A stretch of DNA of 64,000 nucleotides, taken from NCBI RefSeq assembly GCF_030160455.1, contig NZ_BSOJ01000030.1:62001-126000 (forward strand). The letters run 5' to 3'. Position numbers and translations under genes: made by a program. Below the pieces are notes generated by a model. The model did no database searches and was not told the origin of the DNA. It saw only the letters and a program-made list of their open reading frames with translations. Each line of letters starts with the position of its first letter. Positions within the stretch are counted from its first letter, which is position 1. This DNA comes from Limnobacter litoralis (GTDB lineage Bacteria; Pseudomonadota; Gammaproteobacteria; Burkholderiales; Burkholderiaceae_B). Below are positions 7,294 to 20,132 of the stretch, one piece after another.

Positions 7294-7989
7294 CTAGTCT
7301 GACAGCGCCCGCACCGCCGCCGAGTTGAAATCGCGCTGGGCCAGAACCAGCACGATCATGGCACTGAAGGCCATCAACAAACCGGGATGAATGGTCCAGG
7401 TGACCGATGCAATGCCAAAATAATACGCGCGCAATCCACGGTTGAACTCATCGCCTGCAAGGGTGCTGATTTTGGCCAGTTTTTGAGTGTAATCCTGCAC
7501 ATGCGACTCTTCGTCTTTGCCCGCTTCCGGCGCCCCACCCACCATAATGCTGAGCAGGCTGAACTGTCGCAAGCTCCAGGTGAATTTAAAGTAGGCAATC
7601 ACGAACACGGTCAAGATCAGCAACACCTTGATTTCCAGCAAACCGGGGCTGACATCACGGCTGAATGGCAAGCCCTCCGTGACGTTAATCAAGCGGTCCA
7701 TGGTGCCCAACAGCGCAAACACGCCAGCAATAATGTAAATCGTGGTGTTGGCGTAAAACGAGACGCTGCGCACCAGGTAACCAATCAAGGCCGTGTCTGG
7801 CACGCGGTTGGATCGCTTGATCAGCTCTTTGGCCCACAGCACACGGTATTGATGGGTTTTCTGGATCAGGCCACGGCCACCCAGGCCCTCATTGCGGTCG
7901 GTGACATAACCATAACCCCGCCAGCACAGGGCAAAGAAAAACAGCGCGACTGCGTCTAGCCAGGTGAGTTGGCTCAGCATTGACATCAT
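7294..7989 (-). CDS. DUF599 family membrane protein
   Basis: About 231 residues with four predicted membrane segments (WLDAVALFFFALCWRGYGY near the N-terminus, TTIYIIAGVFALLGTMD, LLILTVFVIAYFKFTWSLR, and HPGLLMAFSAMIVLVLAQ near the C-terminus). This matches the DUF599 family, whose function is unknown. The ATG at 7989 overlaps the stop of the upstream glycosyltransferase gene (ATGA) and has a TGAGG site 8 bases before it; ATGs one and three codons later are alternatives. It is the last gene of the five-gene tamAB/glycosyltransferase operon, so a role in envelope glycan or protein modification is possible by context only. Confidence 0.8.
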   Translation of the reverse strand: MMSMLSQLTWLDAVALFFFALCWRGYGYVTDRNEGLGGRGLIQKTHQYRVLWAKELIKRSNRVPDTALIGYLVRSVSFYANTTIYIIAGVFALLGTMDRLINVTEGLPFSRDVSPGLLEIKVLLILTVFVIAYFKFTWSLRQFSLLSIMVGGAPEAGKDEESHVQDYTQKLAKISTLAGDEFNRGLRAYYFGIASVTWTIHPGLLMAFSAMIVLVLAQRDFNSAAVRALSD

Positions 7990-17669: not shown

Positions 17670-20132
17670 ATGGCCCAAACTCACCCCCCAGTGGGCGTCA
17701 TCAAAACCCCCACAACCAACCTTGTTGTCGAAAGGGATGGGAAAATTCTACACCTGTCACAAGGCGACACCCTGAAATGGGGCGATGTTGTGACGAACAA
17801 CGGAAACCAGACAGTCGAAGTATTGATGCCCGCGCAGTCCGCTGGTCAAGGCGATACATTGCTGGAGCTGACTGCGCACGGCTCAGCCAAGCTACATGAA
17901 GTCACCTCTCCACTGCCCGATGGTGTTGCAAGAACCGAGGTGATCGCGCTGAATGAAGGCGTTGAGCTGTATGACGTTGATGACAAAATCAGCTCTGCCA
18001 CCCTGACACAACACGACGGCGCCATGTCTGGACTGGTTGGCGCCGGACTGCTGGCTGGCGCTGCAGGTGGCGGCGGCGCCGCACTGGCTGGGCTGGGTGC
18101 CGCAGGCGTGGCCCTGCTTGCTGCCGGTGGTAGCGACAATGGCAGTGGCACTGGCACAGACACCAACGTTGGCCCCAATTCGAATACGAACACAACCACC
18201 GGAACCGGTACTGGCACAGGAACAGGAACAGGCACTGGTACAGGAACCGGTACAGGAACAGGCACTGGTACAGGTACTGGCACTGGCACAGGAACCGGCA
18301 CTGGCACAGGAACCGGCACTGGCACGGGAACCGGCACGGGTACAGGAACTGGCACTGGTACAAGTACCGGCACAGGTACAGGAACTGACACGAGCACCAA
18401 CACCACGACAGGCACCAGCACTGGCGATCCCGCTGGTGTGGTAGGGGCTGTAAACTCTTTGAGCCAAAGCCTGGATCAAACACCGCTGTCACCCTTGAAC
18501 GCTGTCACTTCACCACTGGCTGATGCAGTCTCTACACTGTCGAACGGCATCAATGGCATCTCAGGTTCATCCACCGCCAGTGCAGGCACAGTTCAAACCG
18601 CAGCAGCATCACCACTTGATCCTTTGACCAATGCATTGGCCTCCGCGTCAGGTGGCCAGCTCAGCCCGTCTCAGCTTGCACCGGTTACCGGCTTATTGGC
18701 ACAGGCGCTTGGTCAGCCACAGCCCGGATACACCAACAACCAGGCAGGCCTGGTGGGTGTAGTATCCAACCTGGCAATCGGATTGAACAGCGGCACACAA
18801 GGCGGACCTCTGGCCCCACTGGTTAATCCACTGTCCAAAACGCTTGGTGCCAATGGCTACCAAACCAACGGTGTGGCCTTGGGCTTGGCACGAATTGGCA
18901 ATGTTCTGGCAGCCGACAAGAGCCCATTGTCGCCTTTGACGGCTGGACTGCTGGCAGCGATCGTTGGCACCGACATGGCCAACCAAAATGCAAGCAACAA
19001 CGGCGTGCCTGGCACTCTGTTGGATGCAGGCTCCGGATTGACCGACCTGACTGCAAGCGGCAGTGCACTGAACCCACTGTCACCGGTGACCGATGCACTT
19101 TCAAATCAGGTTATCGGCCAACTTGCTGGCGCAGTGGAGATGATTGGTCAACAGTTCTCGAACAACGCTGCGGCCGCAGGGCCAGGCGCGCCACTGGTTG
19201 ACACCATTGGTAACCTGCTGGGCGGCGACACCCCAAGCACAGGTGGCGGCGGTACTGGCGGAAGCACTGGTGGTCCACTGCCCACAACGGGCACGCCAAT
19301 TGACATGGTGTTCACACCCATCAATGACGCACTGGGTAGCGGCTTGCCAACCCCGGGCACAGGCGGTGGCACAGGTCTGCCACCTACACCGCTCGACATG
19401 GTCATCAACCCCTTGGTCGATGCCCTGACTGCAGCGCCCGGCAGCACGCAACCCACAGGCACACCGCTTGATTTGTTGATTAACCCCATTTCAGACGCAC
19501 TGGCCAATACACCACTGGAAGCACCCTTCCAGCAACTGGTAGGCGCGCTGGCTGGCGGACTGCCAATGCCAGGCGGCACCGACGGTGGACCTCTGCCCAC
19601 AACAGGTACACCGCTAGACATGGTCTTCACACCTATCAACGATGCAATCAACGGCGGACTGCCAATGCCTGGCGGCACCGACGGTGGACCCCTGCCCACT
19701 ACCGGCACACCGCTGGACATGGTCTTCACACCTGTTAACGATGCAATCAACGGCGGACTGCCAATGCCAGGCGGCACCGACGGTGGACCCCTGCCCACTA
19801 CCGGTACACCGCTGGACATGGTCTTTACACCTGTTAACGATGCAATCAACGGCGGACTGCCAATGCCTGGCGGCACCGATGGTGGGCCTCTGCCCACAAC
19901 CGGTACACCGCTGGACATGGCCATCAACCCAATCAACGATGCATTGCACTCTGCGATGATGGGAACGGGTGGAAGCACCGGTGGCGGTCTGATTACAACC
20001 GGTGGTGAACAGCTGGCCAGCGCATTGAGCGCCATTCCGATGAGCGAACCAGTCACCAGCCAGATCTCCTCTGGCGCACAACAACTGGGTACGCTGGCGC
20101 ACATGCTGCCGATTCCGAACAACCCACTGTAA
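17670..20132 (+). CDS. Large low-complexity repeat protein, putative secreted or surface adhesin-like protein
   Basis: 820 residues. The N-terminal about 110 residues ([38 protein letters not shown]) resemble the retention/prefix module of large type I-secreted adhesins. A Gly/Ala-rich hydrophobic stretch follows ([20 protein letters not shown], about 115-145). Next come 27 uninterrupted Gly-Thr dipeptides at about 178-231, a long Ser/Leu/Pro/Gly region with repeating SPLxPLT-like words, and seven or so 33-residue units of the type [27 protein letters not shown], four of them near-identical at 629-760. There is no signal peptide, RTX nonapeptide or recognisable C-terminal anchor. I chose the ATG at 17670 (AGGA 10 bases upstream); a TTG two codons earlier is the alternative. 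Thr abundance suggests an O-glycosylation target. Function unknown. Confidence 0.85.
18201..18362 (+). repeat. Hexanucleotide tract encoding (Gly-Thr)27
   Basis: 162 bp of tandem GGN-ACN codons inside the repeat protein, followed by Ser-Thr and further Gly-Thr and Asp-Thr pairs. Third bases vary (GGA, GGT, GGC; ACA, ACC, ACT), so the DNA is an imperfect 6-bp repeat with longer 12-18 bp sub-repeats. Gain or loss of units stays in frame, so the tract length can vary between strains without breaking the gene. Confidence 0.95.
19554..19949 (+). repeat. Four 99-bp tandem repeats in the repeat protein
   Basis: Units start at 19554, 19653, 19752 and 19851, each encoding 33 residues that begin [12 protein letters not shown] and continue [11 protein letters not shown]. 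The first three are nearly identical at DNA level; the last ends [11 protein letters not shown]. More diverged units of the same kind lie upstream at about 19260-19500. High identity indicates recent duplication or gene conversion. Confidence 0.95.

Follow-up and report, generated by a model that had tools for sequence, protein, structure and literature searches.

A tamAB locus of Limnobacter litoralis with a conserved divergent repeat-protein gene and enzymes that vary with the repeat tract

A 64,000-nucleotide stretch of the Limnobacter litoralis genome (contig NZ_BSOJ01000030.1, positions 62,001 to 126,000; hereafter the window) contains genes for TamA-like and TamB-like proteins, which are flanked by two glycosyltransferase genes and face a divergent gene for a Thr-rich repeat protein (Table 1). 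The original prediction, made from the sequence without database searches, described this order of five genes on the minus strand, with the repeat gene diverging from them. Their coordinates and domains were verified, as were the width of the divergent gap and the 27 Gly-Thr dipeptides of the 820-residue protein. The junctions, re-read from the letters, also agreed with it: 4-bp TTGA overlaps join the GT41 gene to tamA and tamA to tamB, 8 bp separate tamB from the GT60 gene, and the GT60 and DUF599 genes share ATGA. TTG start codons underlie the first three junctions, and with the ATGA overlap the DUF599 gene would start at 7989. The five genes had also been taken as one transcription unit, which their close spacing and overlaps favour; promoter-like sites (6 found, 5.8 expected from shuffles) and terminator-like sites (18 found, 17.1 expected) were not enriched in the window, so the unit is argued from gene spacing alone.

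Table 1. Features of the tamAB locus in the window.
Feature	Position	Strand	Remarks
Repeat protein, 820 aa from ATG	17670-20132	+	N-terminal all-beta domain (~1-115), Gly/Ala-rich stretch, Thr-rich dipeptide tract
C-terminal part of repeat protein: PLSPLT-type and 33-residue repeats	within 17670-20132	+	
(Gly-Thr)27 run, residues 178-231	18201-18362	+	putative GT41 acceptor tract
99-bp tandem repeats, 3.9 copies, encoding 33-residue Gly/Pro/Thr repeats	19554-19943	+	
Divergent intergenic region, 216 bp	17454-17669		
TPR-GT41 (SPINDLY/OGT-like) glycosyltransferase, 657 aa	15480-17453	-	proposed modifier of the Thr tract
TamA-like Omp85/POTRA protein, 581 aa	13738-15483	-	from domain search
TamB-like protein, 1352 aa	9683-13741	-	from domain search
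PF11397 (GT60-type)-FkbM methyltransferase fusion, 562 aa	7986-9674	-	in the slot between tamB and the DUF599 gene; QIDSHT motif
DUF599 protein, last gene of the block	7294-7989 (open reading frame 7294-8031)	-	231 aa if the ATGA start is used

The window GT41 protein matched PF13844 with 145 bits (cut-off 25) and carried several TPR families N-terminally, resembling OGT and SPINDLY in its combination of TPRs with a split GT41 catalytic region. Its best PDB relatives were SPINDLY (E 1.6e-90, 308 bits), the bacterial TPR protein 5djs and OGT (215 bits); the HMW1C-like 3q3e scored 35 bits, and the HMW1C/NGT subfamily model NF049992 gave 40.6 bits against a cut-off of 1000. The His and Lys positions that we take to be catalytic in OGT look conserved in the alignment by inspection. 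Known SPINDLY and OGT enzymes act on nuclear and cytoplasmic proteins, unlike the setting here, and to our knowledge the substrates of bacterial SPINDLY-like GT41 enzymes are mostly unknown. TpsB, the partner in the HMW1 and Etp systems, belongs to the Omp85 superfamily; the partner in the window is TamA-like, and the only ShlB-family match of the genome lies on another contig. The HMW1ABC and EtpBAC systems resemble the window arrangement in grouping the gene for a GT41-family enzyme, which acts in the cytoplasm before export, with genes for a large surface protein and its partner in the outer membrane. They differ in the enzyme, HMW1C being an N-glucosyltransferase that carries an AAD domain rather than TPRs, and in the substrate, which in HMW1 combines a Sec signal with Asn sites, whereas the window tract is Gly-Thr (PMC3983070, in excerpt).

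The Omp85 and POTRA domains of TamA, the C-terminal domain of TamB and the adjacency of the two genes are those of a TamA-TamB module. Unlike in such modules, scores stayed below the NCBIfam equivalog cut-offs (240 against 625 bits for TamA, 299 against 825 for TamB), which may be tuned to a narrower group; both proteins are nevertheless clear homologues. No operon joining TamAB with a glycosyltransferase partner was found among the papers listed from the open-access literature.

The repeat protein had no Pfam family at E<=0.001. Pfam showed neither an N-terminal retention domain nor a C-terminal RTX domain in it, and the N-terminal domain gave one sub-cut-off match, to DUF3720. The AlphaFold2 model of this domain was confident over residues ~5-115 and had no PDB match at E<=0.001. 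No Sec signal peptide was apparent at the protein start, judged by eye without a prediction tool. The Gly-Thr run spans 54 residues and uses three Gly and four Thr codons; these seven codons exclude a recent expansion of a single hexamer. The N-terminal domain was recovered from one of 399 genomes drawn from the order, that of the window (E<=1e-5). Since neither the matches nor the 21 genomes listed included another member of the genus, this draw is hardly informative about the genus. Further members of the repeat-protein family occur in the window's genome at L122 (contig C18), L124 (C6) and L125 (C15), and no transferase was recognised among their neighbours in open reading frame (ORF) lists scanned by eye, without a family search.

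To compare the locus within the genus, we used the window's genome (G000, 3.01 Mb) and 15 further genomes (16 in all). tamA was present in 15 of the 16 (E<=1e-30), G015 being the exception, and in 13 of these 15 an orthologue of the repeat protein was the divergent neighbour of tamA or of GT41-tamA. The assemblies of the other two, G002 (85%) and G010 (65%), are incomplete. The usual wider block consists of genes for an ammonium transporter and DUF599, the slot, tamB, tamA, the repeat gene, and alkT-like and alkB-like genes; the last two labels come from Pfam domains, and several of the fetched regions stop at contig ends. The DUF599 gene was kept in most members whose region was fetched. A GT41 match (E<=1e-20) came from two of the 16 genomes: G000 and G003 each have the gene placed between tamA and the repeat gene. 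GT60-FkbM occupied the tamB-DUF599 slot in G000 alone. The conserved core is thus tamAB with the divergent repeat protein, and the transferases vary. A conserved GT41-tamA-tamB-GT60 neighbourhood, as had been anticipated, did not hold up, and a fixed operon of this kind was rejected as the genus pattern; the repeat gene itself, far from missing in most tamAB-bearing genomes, accompanies tamAB in the large majority.

The orthologues share the N-terminal domain and differ in the tract that follows it. Seven genomes have a Ser-Asp tract (G001, G004, G005, G007, G011, G012, G013), three an Ala-Asp tract (G006, G008, G009; that of G008 is cut by a contig end), two a Gly-Thr tract (G000, G014) and one an Asn/Asp-Thr tract (G003). 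A fusion with an SdgB-like GT4 domain fills the slot in 7/7 Ser-Asp genomes and in 0/6 others, for which plain arithmetic over the 13 genomes, ignoring relatedness, gives 1 in 1716. GT41 is present in 2/3 Thr-tract genomes and 0/10 others (3 in 78 on the same reckoning, which again ignores relatedness). The three Ala-Asp genomes all lack a glycosyltransferase in the tamAB unit, and the slot fusion of G006 ends in a Mur ligase. The slots of G003, G008, G009 and G014 hold neither a GT4 nor a Mur fusion. Across the genus, tract and tamAB-unit enzyme change together. TCN and AGC codons for Ser, which at least two base changes separate, occur together in each of the seven Ser-Asp tracts, pointing to selection on the Ser residue. 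A tree of four proteins was built for 14 genomes (G010 had too few columns and G015 lacks the genes); it grouped six of the seven Ser-Asp genomes and paired G001 with G006 (support 0.13).

The slot enzyme of the seven Ser-Asp genomes is a fusion of a 550-residue domain, here called torN, with a weakly Asp1-like region and the GT4 domain; in G012 a PGA_cap domain is inserted. The GT4 part of the G001 enzyme had its best PDB matches in 7ec1, 7ec3 and 7ec7 (E 3.6e-53), followed by GtfA and TarM, and further codes in the match rows (7vfk, 7vfl and others) are Staphylococcus aureus SdgB entries (PMC8561734, in excerpt). SdgB is reported to place O-GlcNAc on the Ser residues of DSD and DSDSD peptides, with Arg329, Lys334 and Glu414 as key residues (PMC8561734, in excerpt). 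Counted along the printed alignment, all three residues are identical in the G001 enzyme. By this homology, the enzyme beside the Ser-Asp tracts is related to a proven modifier of Ser-Asp tracts. The seven relatives thus resemble the staphylococcal SdgB/SdgA system with its Ser-Asp adhesins (PMC8561734, PMC3794999, both in excerpt) in having an SdgB homologue in the tamAB unit beside a Ser-Asp protein. They differ from it in the fusion of GT4 to torN, in that these bacteria have an outer membrane, and in the neighbouring genes, which are tamAB or those of a type I secretion system (T1SS); the window itself, with GT41 and a Thr tract, does not have this arrangement.

torN had no Pfam family over its cut-off, with some members weakly GH88- or LanC-like, and an alpha/alpha-toroid-like fold would be a guess. 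The domain is fused to, or lies beside, GT4, Mur ligase, ATP-grasp or PGA_cap modules. Examples include L106:8865-12164 (minus strand) and its homologues, L198:7901-9649, L230, L231 and L235, with X-Asp tract neighbours in several lineages. Mur ligase fusions lie by Ala-Asp tract proteins at L199:10575-13649 and 8856-10394, L231:8100-11291 and L111:4458-7532; the Mur part is nearest to MurF in the PDB for the G006 fusion and MurF-like in L231 and L111. These fusions could represent an undescribed protein modification. The pairing recurs within G005: Ser-Asp goes with torN-GT4 in the copy linked to tamAB, and a paralogue with an Ala-Asp tract is divergent from a second torN protein, torN-Mur. 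The Ala-Asp genomes G008 and G009 carry a torN gene elsewhere, in fetched stretches without a tract protein; that of G009 encodes VanY and Mur domains.

Outside the genus, the GT4 part had a match (E<=1e-25) in one of the 399 order genomes, G139, which encodes torN and GT4 in two genes rather than one, preceded by a TolC-like gene (204 bits, below its cut-off of 225). The tract protein there has 1607 residues, 36.0% Ser and 36.8% Asp, and it lies with an LssB-type ATP-binding cassette (ABC) gene and an HlyD adaptor gene, both over cut-off. The torN profile matched 15 places, spread over 13 of 398 genomes from the phylum, and was found in two of 369 genomes of a class sample (G476 again, and a partial match in G919). 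Counting the 15 phylum places and G139, and excluding G919, there are 16 outside loci, of which four have a dipeptide tract: G139 and G588 pair Ser-Asp with GT4, G476 pairs Ala-Asp with Mur, and G715 has Asp-Gly with torN alone. All four fit the tract-enzyme pairing. In G588 and G476, T1SS-type ABC, HlyD and TolC genes, all over cut-off, were in the fetched stretch; nothing matching a Ser-Asp repeat with type I secretion was found among the papers listed from the open-access literature. Seven of the remaining loci have torN-Mur, and those of G500 and G460 end in an ATP-grasp domain; the C-termini of the G560, G602 and G545 proteins were left out of the domain scan.

For GT41, a parallel was found in G027, from another genus of the family, where the gene for an enzyme 37-38% identical to the window GT41 immediately precedes, on one strand with them, the genes for two proteins whose Thr-rich tracts are of mixed Gly-Thr and Asn-Thr type. 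The N-terminal stretch of the first is related to that of the window protein (hhalign probability 95.9, 64 columns), and tamA was not found in G027 at E<=1e-30. Two further TPR-GT41 genes lie in G027 beside a 1340-residue repetitive protein that is cut by the stretch (L145:4231-10367). As controls, 19 GT41 regions of other genera gave one marginal Gly-Arg ORF (3 windows) under a strict two-residue rule and one match, apparently an antisense frame, under a Ser/Thr-rich rule. Twelve loci from a wider contig search gave no dipeptide-tract ORF under the strict rule; these loci are distant, and five match only the TPR part of GT41.

The GT60 part of the window fusion is well defined (PF11397 GlcNAc transferase domain, 154.5 bits against a cut-off of 21), had no PDB relative at E<=1, and keeps a QIDSHT motif common to the eight genus sequences that were aligned, out of 13 found. 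GlcNAc transfer to hydroxyproline is known for eukaryotic GT60 members only. In 12 relatives GT60 is a single-domain ORF of 319-360 residues away from tamAB. It stands beside glmM in 11 of them (L126-L136) and elsewhere in G015 (L137). Ten of the 11 have folP on the other side, and for L136 only the glmM side was listed; a family search confirmed both folP and glmM at L140 and folP at L131, while at the other loci the two genes are named by eye. From this placement, GT60 was rejected as a general tamAB gene; no link of the single-domain ORFs to the repeat protein was evident. In G000 folP and glmM are present and GT60 is missing from between them; it may have relocated to the tamAB slot and acquired FkbM. 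Its action on the window repeat protein appears rather doubtful. In G008 the folP-GT60-glmM block is followed by a collagen-like Gly-Pro-Thr repeat protein, a possible GT60 substrate, of which the contig holds just the beginning (L132:12969-13463). A second Ser-Asp-tract protein follows glmM in two of the 12 GT60/glmM regions (G007, L131:11059-13695; G012, L135:11133-13628), both in genomes with an SdgB-like enzyme.

How the repeat protein would leave the cell can be compared with T1SS adhesins of the LapA/BapA type. We take its small N-terminal beta domain, Gly/Ala stretch and repeats to resemble these proteins, with which it also shares the lack of a visible Sec signal, and the tract proteins of G139, G588 and G476 lie with T1SS genes. 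Unlike LapA and BapA, it has no Pfam retention or RTX domain, and G000 has no LssB-type ABC protein over cut-off; an ABC protein of that genome scored 457 bits (cut-off 693), and its gene lies beside that of an HlyD-family adaptor over its own cut-off. Within the genus the LssB-type T1SS model was passed in one of the 16 genomes, G003. That TamAB helps to place the repeat protein is conceivable, and we think it rather unlikely.

We therefore propose, with a probability of roughly 0.6, that the window is one variant of a genus-wide locus of tamAB and a repeat protein with an interchangeable, tract-matched enzyme. GT41, presumably cytosolic, would attach O-linked sugar to Thr along the Gly-Thr tract before the protein is exported, and the SdgB-like GT4 fused to torN would have the same role in the Ser-Asp relatives. 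Cytosolic enzymes of matching specificity would thus coat a long disordered tract that is then exported, and the decorated tract could act at the surface as a spacer or shield. Thr glycosylation of the repeat protein, which the original prediction had put forward, gains indirect support from the way enzyme type follows tract chemistry.

Several observations weigh against this proposal. Six of the Ser-Asp genomes form one clade, so few independent changes lie behind the 7/7 association. G014 has a Gly-Thr tract at tamA and no GT41, and G015 has a Thr-rich member of the repeat family and no GT41. The torN-GT4 protein had no match in G000, which makes the argument for the window one by analogy. 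Twelve of the 16 outside torN loci show no dipeptide tract within the DNA fetched, which for several was short, and the seven torN-Mur loci among them suggest that torN-Mur may have other substrates. The mixed tracts of G027 pass the Ser/Thr-rich rule and fail the strict one, and a looser Thr-only rule gave Thr-rich ORFs at 5/12 and 2/19 control loci (the matches among the 12 being Chloroflexi/Anaerolineae and TPR-only), so Thr-rich proteins near GT41 or TPR genes are not unique to these loci. With the LssB-type model confined to G003, the surface location of the repeat protein is something we only infer.

Part of this evidence would also fit a chance neighbourhood, in which the divergent pair shares a regulatory region, GT41 and GT60-FkbM are cargo with other targets, and the tract is a neutral, fast-evolving spacer. 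Both transferases are rare at the tamAB locus, tract letters change freely in the genus, the within-genus change falls mostly on few branches, and G014 keeps its Thr tract without GT41; a shared control region would also explain the conserved pairing of tamAB with the repeat gene. However, enzyme class predicts tract class within the genus and again in G005, G139, G588 and G476, and the synonymous codon diversity of the tracts is unlike neutral slippage; we consider this explanation unlikely.

Another explanation takes the overlap of GT41, tamA and tamB on one strand, with the repeat gene on the other, to mean that GT41 and the slot enzymes modify TamA, TamB or another envelope component (a glycan or lipopolysaccharide-like molecule), with the repeat protein as client or structural partner. 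Small molecules or glycans are frequent substrates of FkbM enzymes. Yet the tamAB units of G008, G009 and G014 contain no transferase, and the enzymes stand beside tract proteins, in stretches with no TamA or TamB match (1e-3), in G139, G588, G476, G715, the paralogue locus of G005 and G027, and such targets seem very improbable. The original prediction as a whole had GT41 and GT60-FkbM working in series (a sugar, a further sugar and an O-methyl cap) with delivery by TamAB. The gene order with its 8-bp gap and overlaps, the tract-matched enzymes that otherwise hold the slot, and the two-step glycosylation by SdgB and SdgA (PMC8561734, in excerpt) are in its favour; the confinement of the fusion to one genus genome and the separate GT60 genes of the 12 relatives make us judge it improbable.

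A wider version of the preferred reading, on which modular tract-matched enzymes decorate dipeptide tracts across Pseudomonadota, is offered tentatively and is somewhat less probable than not. torN would serve X-Asp tracts, with an SdgB-like enzyme for Ser and a MurF-like ligase for Ala, and GT41 would serve Gly-Thr and Asn-Thr tracts. The MurF-like, ATP-dependent ligase might possibly amidate Asp side chains of Ala-Asp tracts; we know of no description of such a reaction. As far as the listings of open-access literature go, the tract-enzyme pairing is undescribed. If it is true, tract and enzyme co-evolve, and tract modification would be predictable from genome sequence. The locus offers a candidate substrate and site for GT41 in the Gly-Thr tract, and the relatives with Ser-Asp, Ala-Asp and Asn-Thr tracts beside different enzymes provide natural controls. 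SdgB-type glycosylation of Ser-Asp tracts, described in staphylococci, would then extend to outer-membrane bacteria, and an unexplored MurF-like ligase paired with Ala-Asp tracts is indicated.

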